Assembly: GCF_027497255.1 (NCBI RefSeq)
Contig: NZ_CP114903.1
Coordinates: 1,984,001-2,048,000, forward strand
Direction of reading: 5' to 3'
DNA: 64,000 bases
Origin: Micromonospora sp. WMMD882
GTDB taxonomy: Bacteria > Actinomycetota > Actinomycetes > Mycobacteriales > Micromonosporaceae
The notes beneath the pieces are model-generated. The model saw only the letters and a program-made list of their open reading frames with translations. It had not been told where the DNA came from and made no database searches. A program made the translations under genes and the position numbers. Positions 27,446-52,144 of this stretch are shown in pieces; position 1 is the stretch's first letter; each line of letters opens with the position of its first letter.

Positions 27446-27501
27446 TGGCCCTGAACCACGGGTTGTCACTCGGCGAGGCTGGAGGAGACGAAGGAGGGGC
27501 C

Positions 27502-29739
27502 ATGGCCACCACATCCCACGAAGCCTGGCGCGGGTTCCACGGCACCGGCTGGCGCGAGACGATCGACGTCGGCGCGTTCATCCACGACAACATCGAGCCG
27601 TACACCGGCGGGCCGGAGTTCCTGGCCGGGCCGACGCACCGCACCGAGCGGATCTGGCGGCAACTGCGGCACATGTTCGTCGAGGAGTGCCGTCGCGGGG
27701 TCTACGACGTGGACACCGACACCCCGTCCACCATCACCTCGCACGAGCCGGGTTACCTCGACCAGGACGACGAGCTCATCGTGGGCCTGCAGACCAGCGC
27801 GCCGCTGCGCCGCGCGATCATGCCGAACGGCGGGCTGCGGATGGTGGAGGCCGGTCTCAAGGCGTACGGCTTCACCCTCGACCCGGCCGTGCGAGCGATC
27901 TTCAGCCGGTACCGCAAAACGCACAACGACGGCGTCTTCGACGCCTACCCGGCCGACGTGAAGGCCGCCCGCCGCTCGCACATCATCACCGGGCTGCCGG
28001 ACGCGTACGGCAGGGGCCGGATCATCGGCGACTACCGGCGCGTCGCGCTGTACGGCGTGGACCGCCTGATCGCCGAGCGCCACACGGTCAAGGCGTCGCT
28101 CGACGCCCGGCTGTCGTCGGAGGACGTGATCCGCGACCGGGAGGAGCTGGCCGAGCAGATCCGGGCGCTGGAGGAGCTGCGCCTCATGGCCAGCCGGTAC
28201 GGTCGCGACATCTCGGGCCCGGCGAGCACGGGCCGCGAGGCGATCCAGTGGCTGTACTTCGCCTACCTGGCGGCCACCAAGGAGCAGAACGGCGCGGCGA
28301 TGTCGCTGGGTCGGACCGCCGCGTTCGTCGATGTCTACCTGCAGCGCGACATCGTCGAGGGCCGGCTCGACGAGCGGGAGGCGCAGGAGCTGGTCGACGA
28401 CTTCGTCATCAAGCTGCGGATCATCCGGTTCCTGCGCACGCCCGAGTACGACCAGTTGTTCTCCGGCGATCCGACCTGGGTGACCGAGGCGCTCGGGGGG
28501 ATCGGCCGCGACGGCCGACCGCTGGTCACCCGCACGAGCTTCCGCTACCTGCAGACCCTGTACAACCTGGGTCCGGCCCCGGAGCCGAACCTGACCGTAC
28601 TGTGGTCGCCGGCGCTGCCCGAGGGGTTCAAGCGGTTCTGCGCCCAGGTCTCGATCGACACGAGCGCCATCCAGTACGAGAACGACGACCTGATCCGGCC
28701 CGCGTACAGCGACGACACCGCCATCGCCTGCTGTGTGTCCGCCATGCGGGTGGGCAAGGACATGCAGTTCTTCGGCGCCCGCGCCAACCTCGCCAAGGCC
28801 CTGCTGTACGCGATCAACGGCGGCCGCGACGAGATGACCGGCGAGCAGGTCTTCCTCGCCGAGCCGATCACCGCCGACGTGCTCGACTACGACGAGGTCC
28901 TGGCCGCGTACGACCGGACTCTGGACTGGCTGGCCGAGACCTACGTCGACGCGCTCAACGTCATCCACTACATGCACGACAAGTACGCCTACGAGCGCAT
29001 CGAGATGGCCCTGCACGACTACCCGGCGCACCGCTTCCTCGCCACCGGCGTCGCGGGCCTGTCGGTCGCCGTGGACAGCCTGAGCGCCATCAGGCACGCC
29101 CACGTCAAGGTCCTGCGCGACGAGAACGGTCTGGCCGTCGACTACGCCGTGGACGGCGACTTCCCGGCCTTCGGCAACAACGACGACCGCGTCGACGCGA
29201 TCGCCGTCGATCTGGTCGAACGATTCATGGCCAAGATCCGGCGGCAGCCCACCTACCGGGGCGCCGAGCCGTCACTCTCGGTCCTCACCATCACCTCGAA
29301 CGTGGTCTACGGCACGCACACCGGCAACACGCCTGACGGACGGCGCGCGGGTGAGCCGTTCGCGCCGGGCGCGAACCCGATGAACGGCCGCGACAGGCAC
29401 GGCATGGTCGCCGCCGCGCTGTCGGTCGCCAAGCTGCCGTACCGCTGCGCGCGCGACGGGATCTCGCTGACCATCACCGTCACTCCGGACGGCCTCGGCC
29501 ACGCCCGCGACGAACGGATCACCAACCTCGCCGGAGTGCTCGACGGCTACACCGACAGCGGCGGCTTCCACATGAACGTCAACGTGCTGAACCGGGCGAC
29601 GCTCGAAGACGCCATGGCCCACCCGGAGAAGTACCCGCAGTTGACCGTCCGGGTTTCCGGGTACGCGGTGAACTTCGTCAAGCTCACCCCCGACCAGCAG
29701 CGCGACGTCATCTCCCGGACCTTCCACGGATCGCTGTGA
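27502..29739 (+). CDS. pflB: Pyruvate formate-lyase
   Basis: A 745-residue glycyl-radical enzyme that cleaves pyruvate plus CoA to acetyl-CoA and formate. It is a true PFL and not a dehydratase homologue: the adjacent catalytic cysteines are Cys410-Cys411 in [26 protein letters not shown], and the radical glycine is Gly720 in [26 protein letters not shown] near residue 612 is also conserved. ATG at 27502 follows AAGGAGGGG. The gene overlaps pflA by 4 bp. The enzyme works only without oxygen, since the radical form is cut by O2; no autonomous glycyl-radical spare part (YfiD-like) gene is in this window. Confidence 0.96.
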
Positions 29740-30488
29740 TGACCGCCGTCACGGCGCCGGTGACCGGCTCGCTCCACTCCTTCGACGTCTCCACCGGAGT
29801 GGACGGGCCGGGCACCCGGTTCGTCGCGTTCCTGGCCGGCTGCCCGCTGCGCTGCCTCTACTGCCACAGCCCCGACACCCGGTACCGCCGTTTCGGCCGG
29901 GCCACCTCCGTCGACGACCTGCTCACCGAGATCCGCCGCTACGAACGCTTCCTGAAGGTCGCCCACGGCGGCGTCACCCTCAGCGGCGGCGAACCCCTGC
30001 AACAGCCCGCCTTCACCCGCGAGGTGCTGCGCCGCTGCAAGGAGCTGCGGTTGCACACCGCCCTGGACACCAGCGGTCTGCTCGGCGACCGCGCCGACGA
30101 CGCCCTGCTCGACGCCACCGACCTGGTACTACTCGACATCAAGTCCGGCGACCCGGCCGTCTACCGGACCGTGACCCGCACCGGGAGGCTGACGCCGACC
30201 GTGCGGTTCGCGCACCGCCTGGCCGACCGTGGCGTGCCGATCTGGGTCCGTTTCGTCCTCGTGCCCGGCCTCACCGACGACCCGTTCAACGTCGACGCCG
30301 TCGCGTCCGTCGCGGCAGACGTGCCCACCGTCGAACGCGTCGAGGTGCTGCCCTTTCACCGACTGGGCGCTCAGAAGTACGCCGCCCTCGGCCTGCCGTT
30401 CCCGCTGGCGGACACGCCGCCGCCGGATGAGGCGCTGCTGCATCGGGTCCGTGGCCAGTTCCACGATCACGGGCTGACGGTGTACTGA
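29736..30488 (+). CDS. pflA: Pyruvate formate-lyase activating enzyme
   Basis: A 250-residue radical-SAM enzyme that abstracts hydrogen from the PFL glycine. The cluster motif is Cys36-x3-Cys40-x2-Cys43 in [14 protein letters not shown], followed by [16 protein letters not shown] and LDIKSGD. ATG at 29736 overlaps the pflB stop (ATGA), so activase and substrate are co-translated. It ends about 170 bp before the remnant of an IS256-type transposase, so the fermentation cluster stops at a mobile-DNA boundary. Confidence 0.95.
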
Positions 30489-30654
30489 CCGGCCCGACCG
30501 CTACCCGTCTCGTCGTCGTACCGGATGGGAGCGTGCGCCAGGTCCTTACAACGGTTCGCCGGTGCCAGCCGGGCCGGGACTGCGTAGTTTCCGTGTTTGG
30601 CCTGGGTGTGGTCCGTTGGACAGGACGTCGATCCTGTCCGGGAAGGACCACGTC

Positions 30655-31231
30655 ATGGCAGACAAGAAGCACGCTTCTCCGCTTCTGCGGCCGTCGACCG
30701 CGGAGGTGGAGTTAGCTCAGCAGTTGGTCGAGCGGGCCAAGGCCGACGGAGTCTCGTTGGTCGGGCCGGGTGGGCTCCTCGCCGGGATCACCCGCACCGT
30801 GCTCGAATCGGCCCTCGACGCGGCGCTGGGCGCCCATCTCGACGAGGCCGGTGTCGACGAGACAACCGGTCGGCGGGCCAACATCCGTAACGGGCACGGG
30901 GCGAAGACGGTGCAGACCGAGGTCGGCCCGGTGCGGATCCAGGTACCGCGGGATCGGGCCGGATCGTTCACGCCGCGAATCGTGCCGAAGCACGTTCGCC
31001 GCTTGGACGGGTTCAACGAGGCGATCCTGTCGCTGTATGCAAAGGGCCTGACGACCGGGGAGATCTCCGCGCACCTGGCGGACGTGTACGACGTCGACGT
31101 GTCCCGGGAGTTGATCAGCAGGGTCACCGACAGCGTCCTGGCCGACATGGAGGCCTGGCGGCAACGGCCCCTCGACCGGGTGTATCCGGTGGTGTTCATC
31201 GACGCGCTGGTGATGAAGATCCGCCAGGGGC
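30655..31231 (+). pseudogene. IS256-family (mutator) transposase, N-terminal fragment
   Basis: From ATG 30655 the frame encodes about 190 residues of an IS256/mutator transposase: GRRANIRNGHGAKTVQTEVGPV, IQVPRDRAGSFTPRIVPKH, YAKGLTTGEISAHLADVYDVDVSRELISRVTD, and the first catalytic Asp in VVFIDALVMKIR. Homology with the second copy (35890-36475) stops at about 31231, and the frame then runs through unrelated sequence to a stop at 31303-31305. Full-length members have about 400 residues, so more than half is missing. The upstream 8-bp palindrome (GGACAGGA/TCCTGTCC, near 30618-30639) may belong to the element's left end. Not transposition-competent. Confidence 0.88.
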
Positions 31232-31434
31232 ACGCCCACTGCGCGTCGGTGACATCGCTGGGGTACGGCTTTCGATCACCCATGACCGGGCTAACGCCGC
31301 CATAGTCCGAAGGTCACGACCGGGATTCACGCTCTGCGGCATCGAGGGATCGCTGTTCGCGGCGCACTCGCCCAAAGATCGTCAACCAGACGCAGAGCAT
31401 AGATAAACTCAAAGATCCGCGAACCGACCTTTGA

Positions 31435-31626
31435 CAGCACCGTCTGACAGGGGCCAGCCGCCTTGGCCTGCGCCATCCGAGCCACCATTGGTACCGGAAA
31501 TGCCGGAAGCTCGCGCTCTGTGTTCTGTCTGCTATCCGTCACTTCGCTGGCCATGCCCAACTGGTCTGCTTGCGTAGCGCGGTGGATCTCTTTGACCCTC
31601 CGATGATCGTGACGAAGCGCTGGTGA
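31435..31626 (+). pseudogene. Possible C-terminal tail of a truncated gene upstream of the PLD module
   Basis: A frame open from about 31435 ends at TGA 31624-31626, overlapping the GTG of the next gene in a GTGA arrangement identical to the junction between the next two genes. Its last residues, LRSAVDLFDPPMIVTKRW, have plausible coding composition, whereas the part nearer 31450 looks poor. I infer that a first gene of this operon was cut off by the IS256 insertion and deletion on the left. The rest of the 31232-31434 interval holds no recognisable gene; a 77-codon reverse frame (31327-31560) is present but unsupported. Confidence 0.3.
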
Positions 31627-33131
31627 CCGCGATGTTGGGTCCGGCGTGGACGGTCAAGCCGGACGCGCCTGAGGACACCGGCCGTCAGCCCCTTGCCGTC
31701 GAAGCCGTGATCGGGACACACGCTGCGGCGCTGATCCCTGGCGTCATCACCACCACTCCCCACGCCCGTTACCTGGCCTTGCACACCCGCCTCGCGATCG
31801 AGGCACAGCGGCGTGGCTGGACCGACAAGACCAACCTGGGACGGTTCAACGCGCTGGTCCGCCGCGCGGAAGTCGTGCTGGGCGCGGTCTCCGTGGCGCA
31901 CGGGGAGGCGGACGAGGACCACCGGCTCCGGGCAGGCCCCTTCGGAGTACACGGGGTGAACACGATCAGACCGCAACTGCACCAGCAGCATGCCATCGAC
32001 GTCGACCAAGTGGCCGACACGTACAGCCAGGTGCGGGGCGGCTACCTGCAGACGTACTCGGGGATCGAAGCGGTGCTCGGCCTCACCGACGGGGCACAGA
32101 TTCCCCAGCCCGGACCGGCCGCCGACGCCGACCAGCTCGCCATCCTCGACGAGATCCTGAATCTTGCGGAACGGGACACACCGCTCTCCGTGGCGGACCT
32201 CAACGCCCTTCACCACCTGTGCGTATGCGCCATCGGCGATGCCCCCGACGGCGCGTGTGTACGCGACGCCTACTTCGCAGGCCCGAACGACTCCGGTGCT
32301 GCTACCACCCATCGCCGTAGCGCCGCCCTGCTCGTGGGGGCACTCACCGGGGATCAGGTCGACGGTGAATCGGTCGACATGTCCATGGACCGCTGGTGCT
32401 GCTTCCGACGAGGGTTGTCGGACCTCATGAGCGAAGACCTGCACAATCAGGCACTCGTCTGGCGTGGAGCGCTGCTGCGCAACTGGTCCGTCTGGGCATG
32501 GCGGCTGATCTGGGCGCGGTTGGTGTCGCCGCTGTCGAGCACCGGCACCCTCAACTACGCGACAGTCAAGTTCGTCCGCGCTCTTCCGGAGGTAACCGTC
32601 CGGGAAGCGCTCATCGACGGTCTCCCTCCGGTCGTCGACGACGTCGGCACCCCGCTGCCGGTCGAGCACGACCTGTACGACGAGGCGCGGGACAGCGATG
32701 ACTGGACGGTGCTCGGCATGCTGCGGCTGATCGCCGTCGGCGCCAAACGCCTGGACCACCTCGACCCGGTTACCCGGAACGCCTTCACTGGTGAGGTCCC
32801 CGATGACCTGGGGCCCGGCTACGTCGCCGCCTGGCTGGCCCGCGAGGCCGACCGTCGGCTGGCGGATGCGGTCACCGACCTCGCCGGCGCGCTGTTCCAC
32901 CGAGCCGAGTCGGTGAGTCGGCAGAAGATGCAGTGGACCCGGTACGGTCTGCGCCTGCCCACGCGGCTGCGTCGTGTGGGCGACCGGTGGCGTCTGGAGG
33001 GCCGGGAGGGGCGGGGCGCCGTGTCCCTACGGCTGCCCACCTTCACCAACGTCATGCAGCAGCTGGGTGTGCTCGCGCACGACGGCGACACCTGGCACCC
33101 CGGCCGGTACGCCACCGAGGTGGTTTCGTGA
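31623..33131 (+). CDS. Unknown 502-residue protein coupled to PLD-like nuclease
   Basis: GTG at 31623 (ATG at 31632 is the alternative) to TGA 33131. The protein is soluble, with no signal peptide or membrane helix, and I do not recognise a named domain with certainty. The N-terminal region AALIPGVITTTPHARYLALHTRLAIEA has a PG-x-x-T-x-T-x-x-ARY pattern that, from memory, recalls the starts of DUF6361-like proteins found with defence genes; this is unverified. The C-terminus (RLPTFTNVMQQLGVLAHDGDTWHPGRYATEVV) reads like a winged helix. Its stop overlaps the GTG of the PLD-like gene by 4 bp. The pair lies between two IS256 remnants. Confidence 0.8.
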   Translation: MTAMLGPAWTVKPDAPEDTGRQPLAVEAVIGTHAAALIPGVITTTPHARYLALHTRLAIEAQRRGWTDKTNLGRFNALVRRAEVVLGAVSVAHGEADEDHRLRAGPFGVHGVNTIRPQLHQQHAIDVDQVADTYSQVRGGYLQTYSGIEAVLGLTDGAQIPQPGPAADADQLAILDEILNLAERDTPLSVADLNALHHLCVCAIGDAPDGACVRDAYFAGPNDSGAATTHRRSAALLVGALTGDQVDGESVDMSMDRWCCFRRGLSDLMSEDLHNQALVWRGALLRNWSVWAWRLIWARLVSPLSSTGTLNYATVKFVRALPEVTVREALIDGLPPVVDDVGTPLPVEHDLYDEARDSDDWTVLGMLRLIAVGAKRLDHLDPVTRNAFTGEVPDDLGPGYVAAWLAREADRRLADAVTDLAGALFHRAESVSRQKMQWTRYGLRLPTRLRRVGDRWRLEGREGRGAVSLRLPTFTNVMQQLGVLAHDGDTWHPGRYATEVVS

Positions 33132-35605
33132 CGGCGTGGGAGGACCTGCGGGGAGCCGCGCCACCTGCCCTGTTGCGCGGCCGGCCCGTGGCCGACGCCG
33201 AAGAGGTCCTTGTGCTCACGTACACCTGTGACCTGTCCTTCTTCGAGGACGTCTGCCTGCGGGAGGCGCAGGCCGTCCGAGCGCGCACGACTATCCTGTA
33301 CGACGCCGACCGACTCACACAGAAGCCCCGCGGGAATGATTACCTGGCCCTACCGGTGGTCTGCCGGGCGGGCGGAGCCTTCCACCCGAAGCTAGTGGTG
33401 ATCGCCTCCGAGGCGGATACCGTGGTGGCCATCGGCTCCGGCAATGCCACCCCATCAGGCTGGCACCACAACGCCGAGGTCTGGACGATGCTGCGTAGCG
33501 CCGACCCGACGGTGCCGCAGGTATTCCATGATCTCGCTGCCTGGCTACGGCGGCTACCCGATGCGGTCTGGATGGAGGACCTCGGCCGGGAACGTCTCGG
33601 CCGCGTTGCGGACATTCTCAGCTGCCGGCCTGCGGAAGGTGGGCCCGGCCAGCCCGTACTCGTGACGACGGCGACACGTCCGGTCATCGAGCAGCTCCCT
33701 GTGCCGAACACACTCGTCACATCTCTAGCTGTCGCCGCTCCCTTCTTCGACCCGCGGGCGGAGGCACTGCGCCGTCTGGTCGACCGCTTCGGACCCACCG
33801 CGCTGAACCTCATGCTGACCCGGGACGTCCAGTGCGATCCGGATGCTCTCGCGAAGGTGGTCAAACAGGCGACGACAGGGGTGGTCACCACTCCAGACAG
33901 CAGCCGCTACCACCACGCAAAGATCGTGGAATGGGAAACGGCCGATCGGTCGTGGGCGCTCACCGGCAGCGCCAACTGCAGCATGGCCGCCCTGGTCAAG
34001 ACCATGGCCATGGGTGGGAACTGCGAACTCGGCCTACTGACCGAGACGCAGAACCCATTGATCACCGCCGTGCCCGTACAGGAAATCGATCTGGCGCGAC
34101 CGGAGGACCTACACGCGCGGGAACCCGGCGAACGGGTCCGCTCGGGGATCGCACTCCGGATACTGGGAGTCCGGGTCAGCACCGAACGGGTGGAAGCCAC
34201 CGCCCTCATCGAAGGTAGCCAGGCCCCGGCCTGGCTCATGGTCGACGGACTACAACTCGACCACGAGCGCAGCGACGGTCGGCTCCACCTCTACGCCGGC
34301 GTTCCGGCTCCCGACTGGTCCTTCACGATAGGCGAAACCGCCACCGTGCGCGTGGTTACGGACACCGGCGCTGAGATCCGCGATGTCGTGGTGACCGATG
34401 TGACGGCAGCGCTGTCACGTATCGACCGACCATCTCCGTTGGAACACGCATCACTGCACGTCGTCATTGCCGACCAGGCGCACCTAGCTGCGCTGTTCGA
34501 CGCGCTCGCCCATCTCTCCACGGTCCGCCCGGACCGGATCGCGACCCCACAGGGCACAAGTCGGCGGCGCCGAGTGGAAGGCCGCATCACCACAGCGGTC
34601 GGGCCGGCCTTGCTGCGTTTCGCTCTGGGTATGGACCGGATCCTGCCGACGCCGGCAGACGATGACATCTTCGACGGCCTAGACAACGAGGACGACGGTC
34701 CGCAGCCTGCCCGGCAGATGGAGCCCAGGAAAACGGGAAACCCACCGCTCCGACCGGAGACCGTCGCGACGGTCCTGGACGCGCTCACGACAGGTCAACG
34801 CACACGCCTACGCCGTGAGATCGAGAGACTCGTAGACACGTCGCAGGGGTGGCCGCTGCCGGCGAAGCTGGCTGTCAGCAGACTCGTCCTGACCCTGGTC
34901 GCCGGCGGGCTCTGGGCGGACCCTGCCGACTGGTCCGACCTCCTCTACTGGCTGATGATGCAGCTCTGGACGACCGACCAGGAAGAGAGCCTGGAGGACG
35001 AGCATGCGGCCCTCGCCACGATCGGGCTGGTGGCGTTACACACCGGTCTCAACCGCGAGGCCGAGCCGGACAGCGCAATCGCCGAGAAGTTCGAGGAGTT
35101 ACGACAGGCATACGCGGAGTGGACCGACTGGCTCGGCGCAGTACCTGAGGAGACGGTCCGAAGGTACGCAGCCGGCCTGAGCGGACACACCCTTGGCGCG
35201 CTGTTCGGGCAGACCGACTTCGTGGCGGAGCTCAGCTGGATCCTGAGTCGGTCAGCGCTGCAAGACGCGGTTGACCGGCTCACCGATGCCCGACTCGACA
35301 GCGGTGGCGTCGTCCGCGTAGCGGCTGGCCGAACCACCCGCCTTGCGGTCCTTGCGGCCTTGGACGTCCTGCGTGACTTCCCAGACACCCAGGTGGCGTC
35401 CGAGGCAGAGCCAGCGGTACACGGCTGGTGGAATAGGCGCCGTCTACTCCTGGTCACTCGGACCGGTGCGAACTGGCGAGCCGAGGTGTGGTCGCACCTG
35501 ATGACCGGGATCGCCGCCTACTCGCGCGGGACACCGCTACCCCCGCCGAATCGGCGCTGGACGGCATCGGAACCAGATGATGCCGCCACCTCGACCAGAC
35601 TCTGA
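33128..35605 (+). CDS. Phospholipase-D-like (HKD) nuclease-domain protein, 825 residues
   Basis: GTG at 33128 overlaps the upstream stop. The N-terminal 330 residues contain two PLD half-sites: FHPKLVVIASEADTVVAIGSGNAT (about residues 80-103) and YHHAKIVEWETADRSWALTGSANCS (about 260-284), each with H-x-K and a downstream GS-x-N. The usual Asp four residues after Lys is not obvious in either, as in several HKD nucleases of the COG3886 type. Residues 340-490 look beta-rich, a charged linker follows at about 510-540 (DDDIFDGLDNEDDG), and the last 280 residues are helical with Trp-rich stretches. COG3886 domains often partner helicases in defence systems; no helicase gene is intact here. Nuclease function is inferred. 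Confidence 0.85.
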   Translation: MTAWEDLRGAAPPALLRGRPVADAEEVLVLTYTCDLSFFEDVCLREAQAVRARTTILYDADRLTQKPRGNDYLALPVVCRAGGAFHPKLVVIASEADTVVAIGSGNATPSGWHHNAEVWTMLRSADPTVPQVFHDLAAWLRRLPDAVWMEDLGRERLGRVADILSCRPAEGGPGQPVLVTTATRPVIEQLPVPNTLVTSLAVAAPFFDPRAEALRRLVDRFGPTALNLMLTRDVQCDPDALAKVVKQATTGVVTTPDSSRYHHAKIVEWETADRSWALTGSANCSMAALVKTMAMGGNCELGLLTETQNPLITAVPVQEIDLARPEDLHAREPGERVRSGIALRILGVRVSTERVEATALIEGSQAPAWLMVDGLQLDHERSDGRLHLYAGVPAPDWSFTIGETATVRVVTDTGAEIRDVVVTDVTAALSRIDRPSPLEHASLHVVIADQAHLAALFDALAHLSTVRPDRIATPQGTSRRRRVEGRITTAVGPALLRFALGMDRILPTPADDDIFDGLDNEDDGPQPARQMEPRKTGNPPLRPETVATVLDALTTGQRTRLRREIERLVDTSQGWPLPAKLAVSRLVLTLVAGGLWADPADWSDLLYWLMMQLWTTDQEESLEDEHAALATIGLVALHTGLNREAEPDSAIAEKFEELRQAYAEWTDWLGAVPEETVRRYAAGLSGHTLGALFGQTDFVAELSWILSRSALQDAVDRLTDARLDSGGVVRVAAGRTTRLAVLAALDVLRDFPDTQVASEAEPAVHGWWNRRRLLLVTRTGANWRAEVWSHLMTGIAAYSRGTPLPPPNRRWTASEPDDAATSTRL

Positions 35606-35889: not shown

Positions 35890-36475
35890 TTGGTGTAGCG
35901 CAGGCTGGCGCGGACGAGGTGGACGACCCACTGCTGGTGCACCGCCTGCGGCCAGACCTGTTCGATGGCGTCGGTCATGCCCTTCAACCCGTCGAAGCAG
36001 ACCAGGAACACGTCCTCCACACCGCGGTTGCGCAGTTCGGTGAGGTAGCCGGCCCACTGCTTGGCGCCTTCGCCGCCGGTGCCGGCCCACATGCCGAGCA
36101 CGTCGCGTTCCCGTCGAGGCTGACGCCGACCACGACGTAGACGGGCCGGTTCGCGACCTGCCCCTGCCGGATCTTCATCACGAGGGCGTCGATGAAGATC
36201 ACGGGGTAGACGCGGTCGAGGGGACGTTGCCGCCAGGCTTCCATGTCGGCCAGGACGCTGTCGGTGACCCTACTGATCAGCTCTCGGGACACATCGGCGT
36301 CGTACACGTCGGCGAGGTGGGCGGAGATATCCCCGGTCGTCAGGCCCTTCGCATACAGGGACAGGATCGCCTCGTTGAACCCGTCCAGACAGCGGGCGTG
36401 CTTCGGGACGATCCTCGGGGTGAACGACCCGGCCCGGTCCCGGGGCACCTGGATCCGCACCGGCCCGACCTCGGT
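35890..36475 (-). pseudogene. IS256-family transposase fragment, frameshifted, opposite to left copy
   Basis: Reading leftward from 36475 the sequence matches the left copy from TEVGPVRIQVPRD onward, through VIFIDALVMKIRQGQVANRPVYVVVGVSLDG. A frameshift then moves the continuation VLGMWAGTGGEGAKQWAGYLTELRNRGVEDVFLVCFDGLKGMTDAIEQVWPQ into another frame. Homology ends near RASLRYTNR at about 35890. Both the N-terminal part and the C-terminal third with the last catalytic Glu are missing. It is closely related to the left copy, differing at a few residues, and faces it. Inactive. Confidence 0.88.
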
Positions 36476-36569
36476 CGTCAACGCGCTTTCCTGCCGTTGA
36501 GCGCCCGAGCTGCTCGAACAGCGGTCACGCTCCGTGGCCGACTTCCGCGCTGTCCGCGTGTTGAACACG

Positions 36570-36880
36570 CTGCGGGCCCTGCGCGCTGGAGCCCGCCGGC
36601 CGCGGCCGAGCACCCTCCCCGTGGCCACGGCCGGCAGTGGCCTTCACTTTTCCGCGCGCCCGCCGACCTGGTGGTCCCCAGCTCGATCGGCCGGTGGCCC
36701 GGCGTCGACGTCCGCGACCCCGGCCGACGTCTCGGCGGCTACCTGGTCAGCCCCGGCTCGGTCGTCGACGGACGGCCATACGCGATCAAGCTGGACCTAC
36801 CGATCGCGCCGCTTCCCCACTGGCTGGCCGCCCGCCTCACCAGCCGGCCGCCGTCCGGCCCGACGCCCTGTAACCGGAGA
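36570..36880 (+). pseudogene. Prim-pol (bifunctional primase/polymerase) remnant of an older element
   Basis: Two overlapping frames together spell a prim-pol segment: STLPVATAGSGLHF in one frame up to about 36650, then FRAPADLVVPSSIGRWPGVDVRDPG, GYLVSPGSVVDGRPYAIKLD and APLPHWLAARLTSRPP in another. This corresponds to the YTVTTGRGGSHLYYQ-to-PLPGWLAGLLT part of the intact prim-pol gene at 47564-48511 but is clearly divergent from it. The N-terminal catalytic part is gone. I read it as the relic of an earlier AICE that used the same tRNA site. Confidence 0.7.
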
Positions 36881-37478: not shown

Positions 37479-37521
37479 GTCGGGACGGCCGGATTCGAAC
37501 CGACGACCCCTTGACCCCCAG
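37479..37521. repeat. attL: 43-bp copy of tRNA-Pro 3' half
   Basis: The 43 bases from gtcgggacggccggattcga to the ttgacccccag end are identical to 52070-52112, which is the T-arm-to-anticodon part of the intact tRNA-Pro gene. The two copies diverge at once on both sides. This is the left attachment site of the element. Confidence 0.95.
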
Positions 37522-37745
37522 GAGGATCCGTTACGCATCTATGCAGGTCACACACGCCGTGACCGCAACTGCGCCGTGCACCCGCCGCGCTTCGTCCACA
37601 TGTACGGCAGAGGCGGGTACGACGTGTGGTCCCCATCGGGTCCCTGTGTCGGCTCCCTCAACTTCAGTCGCTCACGGTGATCACGATTGAAGCGGTTGAC
37701 ACCCTGTGGGCTTTCCCTGTCACACCCGTGACGTAGCGTGCGGTC

Positions 37746-38903
37746 ATGGCCCACCACCTGCCTGAGGATGGCACAGCGCTCTCGGACTCCTCGCAGAGCG
37801 AAGGCACTGCAACTGAAGCCAGCGGATTGGCCCCACCAACTGCGATCAACGGTCTTCCCAGCGATAAGGAACAGGATCCAGAGGCCAGCGCCCGCGCCGA
37901 AGATGGGAGGTGGCCACCCCTCTGGATGCAAGTCACGGCGCTTGTCTCCGCCTCTCTGGTTACTCTCCTCTGCCTGGCAGCCCTATGGCCCTTTTTCAAA
38001 AGCGCCATCGAAGTCGCTTCCTTGATTACAGAAACGCGACCAGTAAAATCAACTATCGAACCCGTCAGGGTGTACCTTGCGTCTACCGCAGAGGGTTTCG
38101 CGGTAAAAGGGAGTGAACTTTTTAGGATTTGGGTAGCAAGCGGGATCGCCTTACTGGCATTAGCCTGGGCTGGGTCAATCGGTGCACGCATTGGCTGGTT
38201 CGCCTTTGGAATACTGACGACCGCAATGGCATGGGAAGGGTCCGAACCGCAACACGCCACGATAGCTGCCGGCCTTAGCGTGATCTGGTGGTCTCTGATC
38301 TCGATCCCCGCATATCGTCGCACCACAAACAAAAGCGGCTATTCCCCATCCCCTCACCCGCTCTTCCGAATATTGGAACTTCTCCAATCGAGCCGCCTTG
38401 CCACCCTCTTGCTTGGACCAAATCAAGCATCCACGGCTACCGCGCTACCCGAGCACGCTCAATCAGCAATACATTACTCCCCGGACTCTAACCGTGCAGC
38501 GGAGTTGAGGGGCGCTGAAATGCAGCGGAGAATCGATAGCAGCATCGCCCGGCACGGCTTCGATAACGTAGCCACGTACATCAAAGCGAACTGGGGCAGG
38601 TCGCGAAAGGTAATGAGCGAGGAGCTAGGCGCACCCGAATGGTTCGTCAAAGAGCTCATACGAGCACATTTTCCACCCAGAGAGGGGACGTCGATCGGCC
38701 GAACGCCATGGCAAATCAAACAGGAAGCTTTAGCGCATTTTCGAAATGGCGAAAGCTTTGCATCCATCGGAAGACGATACCGCGTTAGCGGAGGAACTGT
38801 TAGTCGCTGGATTAGGGAGGAAGATCCCGGCGCTCAGTCGGCATCGAGCGATAGCCGCGAAGAAGAACGGGGGAATGAAGAGGGCAACGGCTCAACTAAT
38901 TAG
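37746..38903 (+). CDS. Membrane protein with C-terminal helix-turn-helix, AICE cargo
   Basis: A 385-residue protein of no recognised family. Residues 1-55 are acidic and polar. Hydrophobic segments occur at about 60-85 (LWMQVTALVSASLVTLLCLAAL), 125-145 (FRIWVASGIALLALAWAG) and 148-190. The C-terminal half is soluble, with one DNA-binding-like helix at about 265-300 (VMSEELGAPEWFVKELIRAHFP) and a homeodomain-like/resolvase-type helix-turn-helix at about 335-365 (FRNGESFASIGRRYRVSGGTVSRWIREE). GC content is lower than in neighbouring genes, and a TTGACA hexamer lies at 37696-37701. It sits directly inside attL, a typical cargo position. A membrane-bound transcription factor or anti-invasion factor is conceivable. 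Confidence 0.75.
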   Translation: MAHHLPEDGTALSDSSQSEGTATEASGLAPPTAINGLPSDKEQDPEASARAEDGRWPPLWMQVTALVSASLVTLLCLAALWPFFKSAIEVASLITETRPVKSTIEPVRVYLASTAEGFAVKGSELFRIWVASGIALLALAWAGSIGARIGWFAFGILTTAMAWEGSEPQHATIAAGLSVIWWSLISIPAYRRTTNKSGYSPSPHPLFRILELLQSSRLATLLLGPNQASTATALPEHAQSAIHYSPDSNRAAELRGAEMQRRIDSSIARHGFDNVATYIKANWGRSRKVMSEELGAPEWFVKELIRAHFPPREGTSIGRTPWQIKQEALAHFRNGESFASIGRRYRVSGGTVSRWIREEDPGAQSASSDSREEERGNEEGNGSTN

Positions 38904-39027
38904 TCCAGGGCGACGCATCTCACCCGACCATCAGACTAACGGGACAAACTGTCTGACCGGACAGCCAAGTGCGCCAGTCCTTGCGCTTTGCCACCTAGGG
39001 GCGAAAGCACAATCCGGCACCCGACCC

Positions 39028-39933
39028 TTAACGCGTAATCGTTGTCGATTCGGCCTTAGTGGATGATTTGCGTTGCTGAGCTAGCCCGATGCCAGCCAGG
39101 ACGAATATCATGCCCGCGAACATCGACCAGGTGAGCTGCTCATTCACTACTAGGGCACCAAGTACGACCGCGACGATGGGAAGCAGGTAGGTGGTGGTGC
39201 TCGCAACAGTCGGCCCTTCGTCCTCAATCAGTCGGTAATTGAGCACGTAGGCAGCCCCGGTACCTAGCAAGCCAAGGACGAGAAGGCTGGCAACCGCGTC
39301 GACCCGCCACGACGGCGCTACGAATCCTTGGACTGGTAAGGCGAACGCAACGAGAATCGCTCCGGCCGCAAGCTGGCTTGCCGCCAGAGTTATCGAGGAA
39401 ATTCCTCGACCAGCGAGGAATTTCCCCATGTAGACGTAACTGACCCCGTAGCTGGCTGCGGCGGCAAGGCAGGCGATCCCGCCCCAGCTTGCGATTTCGC
39501 CTGCCGACCGCCACGGCGAGAAGATCAGGAGCGTTCCCGTAAACCCGAGGACCATGCCGATAGCGCGCTTCGGACTAACAGCGCGGTCTGCACCGACCAA
39601 GAATGCGATAAGGACAGTCCATAACGGCGTGGTGGCGTTAAGTACGCCAGCCACGTTGGAGCCTACCGTCTGTTCACCTACACCAAACAGGGTGTACGGG
39701 ATGGCGTTGGCAACCAGGGCGGCAACGAATAAGTGCCCCCAGGTCCTTGAACCAGTCGGCCATTTCATTTCTCGCATCATCGCGATCGGTGCTAGCACGA
39801 TGACACCGAGCACTAGGCGTACAAGCACGATTTGTACCGGAGTGAAGCCGCGCAGCGCTAGTTTGATCCACAGGAAGCTTGATCCCCATAGCAGAGCTAA
39901 CAGGGCCAGCCTGACCAGGCTGCTGCGGCTCAT
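39028..39933 (-). CDS. EamA/DMT-family transporter, AICE cargo
   Basis: A 301-residue inner-membrane exporter of the drug/metabolite transporter superfamily, with ten hydrophobic segments arranged as two EamA repeats: LLWGSSFLWIKLALRGFTPVQIVLVRLVLG at the start, and ASYGVSYVYMGKFLAGRGISS beginning the second half. ATG at 39933 lies 12 bp after the GntR gene, so both are one operon. Substrates of this family include amino acids, nucleobases and toxic metabolites. GC content is lower than in the AICE core, suggesting a separate origin. Confidence 0.9.
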   Translation of the reverse strand: MSRSSLVRLALLALLWGSSFLWIKLALRGFTPVQIVLVRLVLGVIVLAPIAMMREMKWPTGSRTWGHLFVAALVANAIPYTLFGVGEQTVGSNVAGVLNATTPLWTVLIAFLVGADRAVSPKRAIGMVLGFTGTLLIFSPWRSAGEIASWGGIACLAAAASYGVSYVYMGKFLAGRGISSITLAASQLAAGAILVAFALPVQGFVAPSWRVDAVASLLVLGLLGTGAAYVLNYRLIEDEGPTVASTTTYLLPIVAVVLGALVVNEQLTWSMFAGMIFVLAGIGLAQQRKSSTKAESTTITR

Positions 39934-39944
39934 CCGATACTCCC

Positions 39945-40727
39945 TTAGTCCTCTACGGGCATTTCGTAGTCAAGGCCGTTCAGGTCGCTGCGCATGACGA
40001 ACCTCGTGACTTCGAATGCCTGCATCTTGTCGTCAATGCCCGTGTGGAGAACTTCGATTACGGGCACGCCGGGTGGAATCGACAAGCCTTTCGCCTCTTC
40101 CGGCGTGGGCATGCGCGCCGAGATCTCTTCCCGGATTCGGGCGATCGGATAACCAAGTTCCTCGAATCTGGCGTAGATACTCCCCCGCCCTAATGTCTTC
40201 TCACTGGCCAGTGGTGACGTTCCCGCAACCGCAGTCGGGATGTACGTAACACCCACCTGCACAGGTTCGTCATCCGCGAAGTACCAGTTCTCACGCCGAA
40301 TCACCACGTCCTCGGAGCGGTCAAGCCCAAGCCGCTCCGCCACGTCTTCGGGTGGCGAATCCTGCGTCACCGAACGGCACTCGACCCGTGCCGTGCGCCC
40401 CTGCTTGGTCACCTCGATTCGGAACGGGGAAAGCCCCGTCTCCCCGCGCAGACGGCGCGAGTAGCGGTTAGCGCCGAGCCTCATCAGCGCGGGTCGGTTA
40501 CGGACGAACACGCCTCGCCCATGTTGAGCATCCACCAGCCCTTCAGCTTGCAGAAGGGCCACCGCTTCCCGTGCGGTGTTGCGGGCCGTGCCGTACTCGG
40601 CAGCAAGCGAACGCTCCGACGGAAGCTTGTCCCCTGGCTTCAACTCCCGTTGCTTGATCCGCTCCCGCAGAGCATCAGCAATCCGCCTACTTGGTAGACG
40701 TTTGTCCTGTTCAGGCGATTCAGCCAT
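39945..40727 (-). CDS. GntR-family (HutC/UTRA) regulator of the AICE
   Basis: A 260-residue repressor. ATG at 40727 is preceded by GGAGGTGGGG. The N-terminal winged helix reads RIADALRERIKQRELKPGDKLPSERSLAAEYGTARNTAREAVALLQAEGLVDAQHGRGVFV (about residues 14-75). The UTRA ligand domain follows (LGLDRSEDVVIRRENWYFADDEPVQVGVTYIPTAV). In pSAM2 the related KorSA silences transfer and replication. Here three palindromes lie just upstream, between this gene and the rightward transfer/replication operon, so autoregulation and repression of the core are likely. It shares a transcript with the DMT exporter. Confidence 0.9.
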   Translation of the reverse strand: MAESPEQDKRLPSRRIADALRERIKQRELKPGDKLPSERSLAAEYGTARNTAREAVALLQAEGLVDAQHGRGVFVRNRPALMRLGANRYSRRLRGETGLSPFRIEVTKQGRTARVECRSVTQDSPPEDVAERLGLDRSEDVVIRRENWYFADDEPVQVGVTYIPTAVAGTSPLASEKTLGRGSIYARFEELGYPIARIREEISARMPTPEEAKGLSIPPGVPVIEVLHTGIDDKMQAFEVTRFVMRSDLNGLDYEMPVED

Positions 40728-40758
40728 GGCACCCCACCTCCACCAACAGCCTAGCGCG

Positions 40759-40837
40759 ACTGGCTCAAGCCAGTCTCTTGACAGACGCGCCCCCGGTCCC
40801 CAGACTGGCTTAAGCCAGTTAACTGGCTCAAGCCAGT
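40759..40837. promoter_or_regulatory. Three palindromic operators ACTGGCT(C/T)AAGCCAGT
   Basis: Near-perfect 16-bp palindromes occur at 40759-40774, 40804-40819 and 40822-40837. The second differs from the others by one central base (T for C) and is fully symmetric. A rightward TTGACA hexamer lies at 40778-40783 between the first and second sites, so the second would cover the -10 region. They are the obvious targets of the GntR regulator encoded 32 bp to the left. Confidence 0.85.
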
Positions 40838-41041
40838 AGCCGGATGGTTGTCGGGGAAGGCGGCACATGCCGCACGCCTACGAGCCACCGCGCCTACTCG
40901 TCCTGTGTCAACTGCATGGGGTCGCACCTCCCCGAAAAGGTCGCCACGCATGGGCTAAGGCCCGTGCATCTCCCCTGTACACGCCCCGCGATGGTCCGCG
41001 CGACGATGCGCGGTCCGTCGCCTCCACACCCGGAGGTTTCC

Positions 41042-41419
41042 GTGAGGAAACACCCTGTCCCCACCGAGCCGACCCCCGCCGACCTGGGGGCGATCGACGC
41101 CGAATGGCCGCTGGTCGCCGCCGAGCTGGACCTGCTCGACGCTGAGATCAGCCTGATCTACGCCGAGGATCACGGGGGCCCGTCCCCGCTCGACTGGCGA
41201 CGGGTCCGCCGGGCTGAGGCCCGTGTCACCCGCGCCGCCGCCACGGCGGTCCGTCCGGCTTGGAGCACTGACGGCTGCGTGCCGCACCGCCTGGTCGTGG
41301 TCGGCTGGACCGGTTGCAGCTACCGCTGCGAGATCGTGCGCTGCGGCACCTGCGGTGGTGAGCAGGTGTTGCACCGGACCGAAGACGGATGCCGCGCCGG
41401 CACCGCCCGCGCGGCCTGA
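41042..41419 (+). CDS. Small AICE protein, DUF6284-like N-terminus with Cys pairs
   Basis: A 125-residue protein. GTG at 41042 has GGAGG seven bases upstream. The N-terminus (PTPADLGAIDAEWPLVAAELDLLDAEISLI) resembles the short DUF6284 proteins common in actinomycete plasmids and AICEs (from memory). The C-terminus carries SYRCEIVRCGTCGGEQVLHRTEDGC, a zinc-ribbon-like cysteine pattern. It is the first gene of the rightward operon controlled by the three operators. Its TGA overlaps the next ATG. Function unknown. Confidence 0.75.
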   Translation: MRKHPVPTEPTPADLGAIDAEWPLVAAELDLLDAEISLIYAEDHGGPSPLDWRRVRRAEARVTRAAATAVRPAWSTDGCVPHRLVVVGWTGCSYRCEIVRCGTCGGEQVLHRTEDGCRAGTARAA

Positions 41420-41787
41420 TGGGCCGCATCCGCGCCGCGTACTGGGATCCGGACGGGTCGCGGTACGGCATCCCTACCTACTGGTGGCAGGGTGCCCCGC
41501 CCGGTTACGCGACTCGCCGGCAACTGCGCGCCGCCGGTCTGCGCCCGGCCGGTCAGCCGGTAGCCGCGCAGATCCTCTGGCGCGGCATCGGCGGCACCCG
41601 CACCGCCTACCTGTACCGGGTCGATCTGGCCCGACCGAAGCGCACCGCCACCCCCGCCCAACTCCGCGCCGTCCGCGCGGCCCTGACCGCCCGGCGGACC
41701 TGCCCGACCTGCCGGGTGGTGCGCCCGTACTTCATCCCGCGCTCGCTGGGCGAGTGCACCCTCTGCGCCTACGGAGACCCGCCATGA
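41419..41787 (+). CDS. RRQ-L motif zinc-binding AICE protein
   Basis: A 122-residue protein; ATG at 41419 overlaps the preceding stop by one base. The central TRRQLRAAGLRPAGQPVAAQILWR is the hallmark of the small RRQRL-motif zinc-binding proteins that travel with actinomycete integrative elements. Near the C-terminus CPTCRVVRPYFIPRSLGECTLC supplies two CxxC pairs for zinc. Biochemical role unknown. Coupled by ATGA overlap to the next small gene. Confidence 0.8.
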   Translation: MGRIRAAYWDPDGSRYGIPTYWWQGAPPGYATRRQLRAAGLRPAGQPVAAQILWRGIGGTRTAYLYRVDLARPKRTATPAQLRAVRAALTARRTCPTCRVVRPYFIPRSLGECTLCAYGDPP

Positions 41788-41903
41788 CCCTGCTCTTGCT
41801 GCTGCTGATCCTGCTCGGCGGTCCCGCCGTGATGCTCACCCCGTTCCTGATCGGCCACCTGCTCAACCGGCCGACCCCGAGGATGAAGGAGACCCTGCGA
41901 TGA
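41784..41903 (+). CDS. 39-residue single-span membrane peptide
   Basis: ATG at 41784 overlaps the upstream stop, and its TGA overlaps the next ATG. The peptide is one long hydrophobic segment (MTLLLLLLILLGGPAVMLTPFLIGHLL) with a basic tail. The two coupling overlaps support a real gene. Function unknown; possibly part of the mating-pore or spread apparatus. Confidence 0.7.
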   Translation: MTLLLLLLILLGGPAVMLTPFLIGHLLNRPTPRMKETLR

Positions 41904-42241
41904 CCGACCGCAAGACCCGCCGCGCCGTGCTGGCCGAGCTGCTGTTGCTGGCCAACCCCGCCGGTATCCGCGCCTCCACCTCCGACGCGCTGTCGGTCGA
42001 CTTCGACAGCATCGCTGAGCTTCGCGGGTGGCTGCGGCTGGCCGGACTCGACACCGCCAACCTGCTCACCGGCGAGCGTGACAGCACCGACACCGAGGGC
42101 CGGCCGTACCGCAGCGCGTACGCCTACCCGGTGTGGCACGGCTGGAAGATCTACGCCTACGCCCGTGACTACACCGACACCGCCGCCCCGCTCGACCCGG
42201 CCACCACCGACCAGCTCACCGCCCTGGTGGTGGCCGGGTGA
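41900..42241 (+). CDS. Hypothetical AICE protein, 113 residues
   Basis: ATG at 41900 overlaps the preceding TGA. The sequence has a helical start (RKTRRAVLAELLLLANPAGI) and a compact alpha/beta-like remainder (RSAYAYPVWHGWKIYAYARDYTD). No recognised motif. It is part of the chain of overlapping ORFs between the RRQ-L gene and the Spd-like gene. Confidence 0.75.
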   Translation: MTDRKTRRAVLAELLLLANPAGIRASTSDALSVDFDSIAELRGWLRLAGLDTANLLTGERDSTDTEGRPYRSAYAYPVWHGWKIYAYARDYTDTAAPLDPATTDQLTALVVAG

Positions 42242-42417
42242 ACGCCTGGACGCCGAAGCGCACCCGCCGGCCCTGGTCGACCAGCCCCGACGTGTTCACC
42301 TCCACCGGCCGGGACGGCTACTGCGGTGACGCCAAGAGCGGCCGGACGTGGGGCGTCAGCGAACACCGCCCCTACCCGCTTCCCCGCCCCGCTACCCGGA
42401 AGGACCGCACCCGATGA
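42238..42417 (+). CDS. 59-residue basic AICE protein
   Basis: GTG at 42238 overlaps the previous stop, and its TGA (42415-42417) overlaps the ATG of the next gene. The product is rich in Arg, Pro and Trp, starting with VNAWTPKRTRRPWSTSPD, with one Cys and no recognised domain. The tight coupling on both sides is the main support. Confidence 0.6.
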   Translation: MNAWTPKRTRRPWSTSPDVFTSTGRDGYCGDAKSGRTWGVSEHRPYPLPRPATRKDRTR

Positions 42418-43415
42418 CCGCTCCCACGATCAACGGCACGAAGTACCCGCAGCCCATCGAGGACCTGCTGCCGGCCGCTCGCGCGTTGGTGTTGCCCGAG
42501 GGGCAGAAGCTGCCGTCGCGTAACCGGCTGATGCGGGAGTTCCACATCGGCGCGCCGAAGGCCGATGCCCTGCGCGCGTTGCTGATGAACGAGGGCATCC
42601 GCCGGGATCTCGACCAGGCCGAACGGGACGGCCGACTGACCCGGCCCGGCACCCGCACGTCCGGCCCGGTGGTGTTCGACTACCCGGAACCGATCGGCCC
42701 GGACCCGGCCGACGACCAGGCCGAGCGGGCCCGCCTCTACAACCTGGTCCGGGGCGGTACCGGCGGCACGGTCGACGTGGCCGAGGCGGCCCGCCGGGTG
42801 GCCGACGACCCGCACGCCCCCGACTACGTCCGGTCGGTCGCCCGGGACCTGATCGACACCGCCCCGGACACCCGGGCGCACGCCGACACCGGCCACGCCC
42901 CGACCGCCACCGGGCAGCCGCCGGCCGTCGAGCCGACCGGGCAGGTAGAGCCGGTCGGACACCCGGACACGAAGATCCGCCCCGCACGGTCCCGGCGGGC
43001 GGTGGTGTGGCCCGTGATCCTGCTGGCGCTGCCCGCGTTCGTCGCGATCTGGGGTGGCTGGGTCGGACTCGGGAAGCTGACCGGGTTCGGGAAGGTGAAC
43101 CTGTTGCCGGGGATCGGGTCCGGTTGGGTCATCGACACCGCCATCACCCTGCCCATCGGTGTCGAGACGTACGGGGCTTTCGCGCTCTACGTGTGGCTCA
43201 CCGGTCGGGTGCCCGCGCGGGCGGCCCGGTTCGCGAAGTGGTCCGCCCTCGGGTCCCTGGCCATCGGCGCGCTCGGGCAGGTCGCCTATCACCTGCTGAT
43301 CGCGGCCGGGATCACGTCCGCCCCGTGGTGGATCACGACCCTTGTCGCGTGCCTGCCGGTGGCCGTTCTCGGGATGGGCGCCGCCCTCGCCCACCTGATG
43401 CACGCCGACCAGTAG
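42414..43415 (+). CDS. Spd-like transfer membrane protein with N-terminal winged helix
   Basis: A 333-residue protein; ATG 42414 overlaps the upstream TGA. Residues 15-60 look like a winged helix (KLPSRNRLMREFHIGAPKADALRALL). A polar linker follows at about 90-195. The C-terminal 135 residues contain four membrane helices (VVWPVILLALPAFVAIWGGWVGL; WVIDTAITLPIGVETYGAFALYVWL; WSALGSLAIGALGQVAYHLLIAAGI; WWITTLVACLPVAVLGMGAALAHL). This layout resembles SpdB-type spread proteins and DUF2637-like proteins of Streptomyces plasmids, which help intramycelial plasmid spread. A role in transfer is inferred. Confidence 0.75.
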   Translation: MTAPTINGTKYPQPIEDLLPAARALVLPEGQKLPSRNRLMREFHIGAPKADALRALLMNEGIRRDLDQAERDGRLTRPGTRTSGPVVFDYPEPIGPDPADDQAERARLYNLVRGGTGGTVDVAEAARRVADDPHAPDYVRSVARDLIDTAPDTRAHADTGHAPTATGQPPAVEPTGQVEPVGHPDTKIRPARSRRAVVWPVILLALPAFVAIWGGWVGLGKLTGFGKVNLLPGIGSGWVIDTAITLPIGVETYGAFALYVWLTGRVPARAARFAKWSALGSLAIGALGQVAYHLLIAAGITSAPWWITTLVACLPVAVLGMGAALAHLMHADQ

Positions 43416-43421
43416 CTACGC

Positions 43422-43468
43422 CCGGCGGCACAGCCCTACGGCCTCAGAAACCAGTGCTGTGCCGCCGG
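43422..43468. repeat. Leader hairpin, copy 1 (upstream of Nudix gene)
   Basis: CCGGCGGCACAGC (43422-43434) pairs perfectly with GCTGTGCCGCCGG (43456-43468). The 47-bp unit recurs at 44295-44341 with only a few differences, all in the loop. Its end lies 41 bases before the Nudix ATG. Confidence 0.85.
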
Positions 43469-43509
43469 CCCCATGCCCATCTGTCAAAGGACTTCAGGGA
43501 GAGATACCC

Positions 43510-44016
43510 ATGTTCGCAGGTTCGACCATTGTGCACGCGCTCAGCCGGCACTTCACCGCGTCCGCTGTCGTGATCGACGCGGACGCCCGGCGGGTGCTGT
43601 TGATCGACCACAAGGCGTCCGGTCTCCGGCAGTTCCCCGGAGGGCATGTCGACCCGGATGAGACCGGTGACGAAGCCGCTATCCGTGAGGTGCGCGAGGA
43701 AACCGGCGTGATCGCCACTGTGTGGACCCCGACCAGGTTCGTGGTGCCCGGTGCCCGTCGGGTGCACCCGACGCCGTTCATGGTCGCGGAGTTCCCCGCG
43801 CCGCCGAAGCCGCACAAGGGTGAGCCCGCCCACCACCACATCGATTTGCTGTACATCGCTACGGCTGACAGCTCGGCCCCGATGACCACTCAACTTGCCG
43901 AGGTTGACGGCGCGGTGTGGTTGCCGCTGGACAACCTCGCCGTAGCCGCTGTCCGCGCTGACGTGCCCCCGGTCGCCACTGCCGCCTGGAAGGCCCTGAC
44001 CGGCCAGACGCTCTGA
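43510..44016 (+). CDS. Nudix hydrolase of the AICE
   Basis: A 168-residue Nudix enzyme. ATG 43510 follows GGGAGAG. The Nudix box is GGHVDPDETGDEAAIREVREETGV (about residues 46-69), fitting G-x5-E-x7-REVREETGV, and LRQFPGGH precedes it. Nudix genes are recurrent members of pSAM2-like elements, where a Nudix product was linked to signalling the donor state. The substrate here is unknown. It lies between two copies of a conserved hairpin. Confidence 0.9.
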   Translation: MFAGSTIVHALSRHFTASAVVIDADARRVLLIDHKASGLRQFPGGHVDPDETGDEAAIREVREETGVIATVWTPTRFVVPGARRVHPTPFMVAEFPAPPKPHKGEPAHHHIDLLYIATADSSAPMTTQLAEVDGAVWLPLDNLAVAAVRADVPPVATAAWKALTGQTL

Positions 44017-44079
44017 CCGCTTCCATCGCCACCGGATCATCGCCCGGTGGCGGTGGTAGCCGCCAGAGCGTCTGGCCGG
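44000..44079. repeat. 16-bp perfect inverted repeat after the Nudix gene
   Basis: CCGGCCAGACGCTCTG (44000-44015, including the Nudix stop codon) is exactly complementary to 44064-44079. Inside, ATCGCCACCGG and CCGGTGGCGGT add an almost continuous second stem, so the whole 80 bases can fold into one long hairpin. It ends 19 bases before the next ATG. Possible terminator or mRNA processing site. Confidence 0.75.
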
Positions 44080-44098
44080 CGGAGAGGAGCACTACGTC

Positions 44099-44287
44099 AT
44101 GGACAAGAGCAAGAACCTGAGCATGCAGCTCGGCGACAAGGCGGACTGCGTGGCCTGCGGCACCGAGATCACCAAGGTCGAACAGGGGCGCGGTGTGCAG
44201 GTCTGGGTAGACGCCAGGGGCGACGCCTACCACGGCTTCGGCATCGGCGGCCACCTGCCGCTCAAGGGCACCGTCCGGCGTCCCTGA
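44099..44287 (+). CDS. 62-residue AICE protein with CxxC
   Basis: ATG 44099 with GGAGAGGAG upstream. The product starts MDKSKNLSMQLGDKADCVACGTEI and contains one CVAC pair and a Gly-rich end (HGFGIGGHLPLKG). No family recognised. It sits between the Nudix and Tra genes, bordered by hairpins on both sides. Confidence 0.7.
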   Translation: MDKSKNLSMQLGDKADCVACGTEITKVEQGRGVQVWVDARGDAYHGFGIGGHLPLKGTVRRP

Positions 44288-44294
44288 CCCCGCC

Positions 44295-44341
44295 CCGGCG
44301 GCACAGCCCTCATGGCCTGGAAACCAGTGCTGTGCCGCCGG
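44295..44341. repeat. Leader hairpin, copy 2 (upstream of Tra gene)
   Basis: Same 13-bp arms as copy 1 (44295-44307 and 44329-44341), and the loop also keeps GAAACCAGT. It ends 40 bases before the Tra ATG, nearly the same spacing as copy 1 to the Nudix gene. Confidence 0.85.
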
Positions 44342-44381
44342 TCCTCCCCAACCGTCAACTGATCACGGAGGAACCCTCATC

Positions 44382-46565: not shown

Positions 46566-46583
46566 GCCGGACGGCGGCAGGTG

Positions 46584-46629
46584 GCTAGGTCTAGCGGTGG
46601 CCCCCGCTAGACCTAGCACCCCCGCTAGC
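46584..46629. repeat. Hairpin plus direct repeats after tra, candidate transfer locus
   Basis: GCTAGGTCTAGCGG (46584-46597) pairs exactly with 46604-46617 over a 6-base loop. CCCCCGCTAG occurs at 46601-46610 and again at 46619-46628, and CCCCTAGCGG appears near 46661. The 148-bp gap holds no ORF. In pSAM2-like elements the cis-acting transfer locus with short repeats recognised by the Tra protein lies near the tra gene; a terminator is the alternative. Confidence 0.55.
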
Positions 46630-46713
46630 AACCCATCCCAATCCTGGCCAGCGCCCTAACCCCTAGCGGCGCTCCCCTCACCGCGCCCTCGATCCGGTCT
46701 GTGGAGGCATCCC

Positions 46714-46953
46714 GTGACCCCCATCGTTCTGCTCGCTAGCCTCGCCGCCCTCATCTACGCAGCGTCATACGCGATCGTCTGTGCCGTGTCCCCGTGGGGG
46801 CGTTGCCGGCGCTGCCACGGACGCCGATCCCACCGCACGGCCATCGGTACCCGCCGGGACTGCCCCCGCTGCGGCGGCACCGGCATCCGCGTCCGCGTCG
46901 GCCGCCGCCTCGCCGAGCATGTCCGCGCCCAGTACCGGGACGGCGCCCGATGA
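46714..46953 (+). CDS. 79-residue membrane-anchored zinc-finger-like protein
   Basis: GTG at 46714. One N-terminal membrane helix (PIVLLASLAALIYAASYAIVCAV) is followed by CRRCHGRRSHRTAIGTRRDCPRCGGTGIRVRVG, a DnaJ-like pair of CxxC(x)G motifs. Its TGA overlaps the next ATG. Such small proteins recur in AICEs; function unknown. Confidence 0.75.
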   Translation: MTPIVLLASLAALIYAASYAIVCAVSPWGRCRRCHGRRSHRTAIGTRRDCPRCGGTGIRVRVGRRLAEHVRAQYRDGAR

Positions 46954-47530: not shown

Positions 47531-47563
47531 CCCCGCCCCCGCCGACACACCACGGAGGCATCC

Positions 47564-50067: not shown

Positions 50068-50072
50068 AACCC

Positions 50073-51986: not shown

Positions 51987-52019
51987 GTCAACGATCACCT
52001 ACCGGCGCAGAATGAAATG

Positions 52020-52060: not shown

Positions 52061-52069
52061 CTGCGTGCT

Positions 52070-52144
<75 letters not shown>

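Follow-up and report, generated by a model that had tools for sequence, protein, structure and literature searches.

A two-gene locus of Micromonospora sp. WMMD882 encoding a PLD-fold protein and a partner of a new family, with distant kinship to Azaca

Introduction

Nucleases of the phospholipase D (PLD) type are found in restriction settings, as in the NgoFVII-type PLD restriction enzymes and the DUF3427 PLD-helicases, and the "Zac" set of PADLOC models (ZacA, ZacB, and ZacC) presumably stands for the Azaca system. Several papers on defense mention Azaca, and PMC10952713 ascribes a PLD-like domain to it. Literature searches with DUF6361 by name yielded nothing, those with the names ZacA, ZacB, and ZacC gave nothing relevant among the matches listed, and no matching two-gene or Micromonospora PLD defense system appeared among the titles and abstract openings listed. 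We present here a gene pair, A and B, from a 64,000-nucleotide stretch (the window; contig NZ_CP114903.1, positions 1,984,001 to 2,048,000) of the 6.37-Mb genome of Micromonospora sp. WMMD882. An original prediction, made from the sequence letters, had described the pair as a candidate defense-type operon.

Results

The pair and its parts lie as follows, in window coordinates:

31525-31622, plus strand: non-coding block directly upstream of A and left edge of the conserved unit, with cores TGTCGGCTATCCGTCA and GTAGCGCGGTGGATCT in relatives
31623-33131, plus strand: gene A, 502 aa; its family is new and has an N-terminal motif in common with DUF6361/ZacA, model of mean pLDDT (predicted local distance difference test) 91
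33128-33131, plus strand: GTGA stop/start overlap of A and B
33128-35605, plus strand: gene B, 825 aa, PLD/Tdp1-fold protein
33383-33445, plus strand: first HKD half-site of B (H86, K88, S104, N106)
33914-33976, plus strand: second HKD half-site of B (H263, K265, S281, N283)

The two overlapping plus-strand genes are thus present as first described, and among named organisms the closest protein relatives come from Micromonospora. Pairwise ratios of nonsynonymous to synonymous substitution rates (dN/dS) were 0.206 to 0.234 for A against six close relatives and 0.223 to 0.240 for B against five. Because these ratios are low and other genomes carry the pair as well, A and B are more than chance open reading frames (ORFs); both are real, intact genes under purifying selection, and conservation as decaying fragments, which the original prediction had listed as counting against it, is not what was found (dN/dS about 0.22, pair recurrent).

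For comparison, 42 stretches were analyzed, from which four exact duplicates and one locus 95% identical to another (L073, to L005) were excluded, leaving 37 loci, all found via A. In 34 of the 37, A and B are same-strand neighbors, two of these loci having broken genes (L007, L013); in the other three (L036, L041, L081) A is only a fragment or lacks a callable ORF. Homologs therefore do co-occur, and A and B form a conserved, recurring unit. Within the genus the distribution is patchy, with the pair in 16 of 151 congeneric genomes, twice as fragments. The converse search with B matched 22 of 160 Micromonospora genomes, and full-length A accompanied all 15 matches with E below 1e-140; the remaining seven were weaker (E 7.9e-90 to 1.5e-16), among them a split B at a contig end (G057) and one with an adjoining A-like ORF (G500). 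Among 72,556 plasmid records, seven carried a relative of A, each with a relative of B adjacent, and 19 matched B. Seven plasmid regions were opened, five with A and two from B-only records. One of the latter, a Rhizobium gallicum plasmid (L168:7752-12008), has the reversed order, B and then A, directly abutting, the A being matched by a profile of distant A relatives at E 9e-10; the other, from Roseomonas, has a 516-aa partner upstream of B that the A profiles do not match, and both genes adjoin qatCD. Phage records searched with B alone gave no match, and no relative was confirmed in viral contigs (IMG/VR) with the A and B profiles.

Residues 4 to 333 of B form a PLD pseudo-dimer, with the two HxK...GSxN half-sites that had been predicted, and the roughly 490 residues that follow make up a beta and helical region. 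B matches PLDc_2 (Pfam, E 3.4e-7), ZacB (PADLOC, E 9.8e-15, with the best stretch at B residues 196 to 308 and profile positions 226 to 337 of 586), and, weakly, DrmC (E 1.2e-4); the RE_NgoFVII Pfam match (E 0.19) is under the cut-off, and by sequence the best match among solved structures also had E 0.19. Both hallmarks of the PLD/HKD superfamily, the paired half-sites and, in the structural model, the fold, are found in B. The model has a Tdp1/PLD fold, with Tdp1 the nearest among solved folds, and it resembles both nuclease and lipid-acting PLD kinds; most likely B is a DNA nuclease. Both half-sites are complete (eight residues) in 75 of 80 aligned B homologs, and of the 120 B homologs listed, 108 have the full catalytic set.

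Ten of the 12 incomplete homologs are from Dactylosporangium. Their sequences open with the N terminus of A (GPAWTA...), and in each of the ten most of the HKD residues of both half-sites are gone. Such a start is missing from all 108 catalytically complete homologs, and the other two incomplete ones are a protein with one change (P0081) and a dead protein lacking the A-like start (P0082). In one Dactylosporangium genome that holds a dead B gene (G259), A was absent from the 27 matches of the A search. It looks as if, in this one genus, a deletion took out A and the active site of B then decayed. Since every B with a relic of A has lost catalytic residues, A and B probably work together. These Dactylosporangium genes (L171 in G259; proteins P0083-P0093), with their A-like starts and dead HKD sites, are still long ORFs.

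The original prediction could name no domain in the first gene, and A indeed matches nothing in Pfam, PADLOC, or NCBIfam at E of 1 or less. Its model is confident (mean pLDDT 91) and mostly helical, and the whole-protein fold gave no meaningful match among solved structures. Fold comparison, which had been proposed for both proteins, was productive for B, with its similarity to the Tdp1/PLD fold, and not for A. By the curated models A lies outside ZacA/DUF6361, and the similarity seen is N-terminal and profile to profile. Aligned with hhalign, A matches DUF6361 at E 7.9e-4 over 66 columns (probability 25%), a set of distant A relatives matches DUF6361 at E 3.4e-6 over 81 columns (88%), and A matches that set at E 7e-74 over 492 columns. 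The profile of the distant relatives, with no DUF6361 inside, finds four DUF6361 proteins in a scan of 396 genomes (E 6.5e-5 in G389, 9.8e-6 in G558, 2.4e-4 in G012, and 9.3e-4 in G610). Because this intermediate set bridges A and DUF6361 in profile comparisons, common descent of at least their N-terminal parts is likely.

DUF6361 itself stands directly upstream of ZacB in all three loci with a strong ZacB match among 149 genomes searched. In one of them (L097) the copies match ZacA at 1.4e-134 and ZacB at 9.4e-173 and a DEAD helicase is next; in another (L098), and in a fourth DUF6361 locus (L145), a helicase is two genes downstream, and the remaining locus (L099) stops at a contig edge. On profile evidence, B is distantly related to ZacB. 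In the WMMD882 genome ZacC yields only pieces with E 3e-11 and 2e-4, both inside a single 1295-aa frame (827-828 kb).

The 98 nucleotides 5' of A can be aligned in eight Micromonospora pairs (window included), and the common similarity ends above this block. The original prediction had suggested a truncated third gene ending in a further overlap at 31623-31626. The frame is open there; however, among six equal-length Micromonospora pairs (window included), divergence in the block is flat at 0.33/0.30/0.30 for codon positions 1/2/3, and the first codons of A give 0.10/0.06/0.41 in the same comparison. As the three codon positions vary equally, the block is read as conserved non-coding DNA and the third gene is rejected. 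Two observations point the other way and were judged weak: the frame is open across the block in all eight pairs, and the block lengths of 98, 95, and 104 nucleotides differ by multiples of three. The block is probably a promoter or operator that travels along with the two genes, although a consensus scan detected no sigma-70-type site.

Outside the window, distant pairs stand directly behind drmA-drmB-drmC with 4-nucleotide overlaps (L103), behind a methylase and an HKD-SNF2 helicase (L142), directly behind a DUF3427 PLD-helicase (L037), and, with a single unassigned ORF in between, behind PglX (L141). In two close relatives (L029, L030) a type IIG/ISP restriction-modification (R-M) gene stops about 390 nucleotides upstream of A, and chosen neighbors of other pairs, from single-locus scans without control, include pPIWI-RE, type IIG, type I R-M, Wadjet, and Gabija. 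A matched tally compared 13 pair loci with 13 control loci of the same genomes, using ORFs of at least 280 aa chosen by third-position GC content and leaving out the couple L039/L163 and giant control ORFs in L150 and L162. At E of 1e-20 or less, 60 pair-neighbor proteins matched 54 PADLOC models and 104 control proteins matched six; the 54 are models rather than systems, because there is redundancy among PADLOC models and some of them (kinases) are of a general kind. There is no constant neighbor, since no non-pair cluster occurs in more than 5 of 36 loci (first 40 clusters). A gene of about 230 to 330 aa with a sub-threshold helix-turn-helix match lies downstream of B in L003, L029, L031, and L032 (233 to 238 aa, immediately following B, at L032:13515-14216 and L031:6564-7280) and not in the window.

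The setting of the pair in the window includes these features:

30562-31302, plus strand: truncated IS256/Mutator transposase at the left flank (Transposase_mut E 3.9e-45, profile 10-177 of 379)
35988-36628, minus strand: truncated IS256/Mutator transposase at the right flank, inverted relative to the left (Transposase_mut E 2e-40, profile 52-194 of 379)
37479-52112: integrated element with a perfect 43-bp tRNA-Pro 3'-end repeat at both ends (37479-37521 and 52070-52112)

The insertion sequence (IS) remnants had been recognized in the original prediction, which also placed the pair in mobile-element debris beside a tRNA hotspot. That placement stands in part: IS pieces flank the pair and the tRNA-Pro element is nearby, its left end 1.9 kb beyond the right end of B, but the pair is outside it. 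Cargo of a tRNA hotspot element was accordingly rejected as a description, as was a composite transposon; the IS pieces, which form 325-nucleotide inverted arms, are truncated and only 88% complementary, so they and the pair have made no recent joint move. Given these pieces and the separate element, the pair is seen as lying in an accretion zone. The tRNA-Pro element contains a Phage_integrase gene (50742-51986), and inspection by eye adds a primase/helicase-like region (47564-50067). To the left of the IS piece lie a PFL-like glycyl radical enzyme and its activase (27463-30488). Two relatives match the left flank at 94% over 3.1 kb, and because this similarity ends near 30494 no clean empty site was found. 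In the immediate flanks no defense gene touches the pair. A related genome has a 23-tRNA-gene array adjoining the PFL activase (L138:12383-15847).

Discussion

The explanation that we favor, by a little over even chances, is that A and B form an intact, mobile, two-gene PLD-nuclease immune module that works independently of a helicase, with A in a recognizing or licensing role. The two half-sites of B would come together in one composite active site, a pseudo-dimer like that of Tdp1 or PLD3, with DNA as the substrate. A, mostly helical and a distant relative of DUF6361, would recognize the invader or a state of damage or replication and license cleavage by B, and the pair would act against phages without a dedicated helicase. 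The defense-type operon first proposed is thus upheld in its linkage, constraint, and defense-rich neighborhoods, and it loses its third gene and its tRNA-element setting. A broader proposal, which we hold tentatively and would not bet on, is that the pair is a portable core, uniting recognition and nuclease, of a wider immune class, complete alone, joined to a helicase in Azaca, appended to DISARM, or placed near PglX or type IIG genes, with the A family as a shared unnamed recognizer.

An accessory role is unlikely, though it is the rival with the most to recommend it: the pair would act through R-M, BREX, DISARM, or a helicase of the host, to which it would contribute the choice of target and, in trans, a second nuclease, and would be weak or idle alone. 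The distant pairs directly behind drmABC, behind the HKD-SNF2 helicase and methylase, and behind the DUF3427 PLD-helicase fit this, as do the pair one ORF behind PglX, the R-M gene upstream of A in two relatives, and the helicase joined to the cognate pair in Azaca. Against it, neighbors vary between loci, the window pair is touched by no defense gene, and four plasmid records have no annotated R-M or helicase gene directly beside the pair (gene tables in PLSDB are not complete, and L167 has a helicase at a distance of about 7 kb). That the two genes are translationally coupled with A first, and that loss of A accompanies loss of the B active site in Dactylosporangium, would also suit a toxin-antitoxin-like guard in which A restrains a toxic nuclease B until an invader disturbs A; with both proteins large, long ORFs of dead B retained by several strains, and a reversed gene order on record, we give this little credence.

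The Tdp1-like fold raises a DNA repair or processing pair with no immune role, which the patchy distribution, the carriage on plasmids, and the defense-rich neighborhoods make less credible still. Least probable of all, and very improbable, is a functionless leftover of a three-gene Azaca locus after loss of the helicase: the genome has no ZacC beyond the weak matches and IS pieces lie at the flanks, yet pairs lacking an adjoining ZacC recur across genera, dN/dS is about 0.22, and the upstream block is conserved. If the helicase-independent module defends alone, it would be a small PLD-nuclease system that can be tested apart from the larger machineries of Azaca and DISARM. In that case the function of DUF6361/ZacA could also be approached through the invariant positions of A, its confident model, and the natural experiment in Dactylosporangium.

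Compared with known proteins, B shares only about 13 to 15% identity with Tdp1, PLD3, and PLD4, and, unlike them, is bacterial, has a long C-terminal region, and is linked to a partner. It differs from the NgoFVII type and the DUF3427 PLD-helicases in having no fused helicase and only the sub-threshold RE_NgoFVII match. With DISARM it shares the PLD domain detected by DrmC, and an A-like/B-like pair lies downstream of drmABC in L103; however, DrmC in that locus is encoded separately, as a protein of 243 aa, and the window pair has no DrmA or DrmB beside it, its flanks holding only the IS256 pieces, the PFL genes, and EamA and GntR genes. The pair departs from Azaca in lacking the ZacC helicase, in an A that exceeds the DUF6361 query by about 90 aa and does not match the ZacA model, and in a B with about 240 aa more than the ZacB profile. 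It resembles Azaca in the A-type protein directly upstream of the PLD protein, in the partial match of B to the ZacB model, and in the LxPGxxTxxxxARY...E motif common to A and DUF6361/ZacA, and the evidence favors a helicase-free variant of the Azaca theme.
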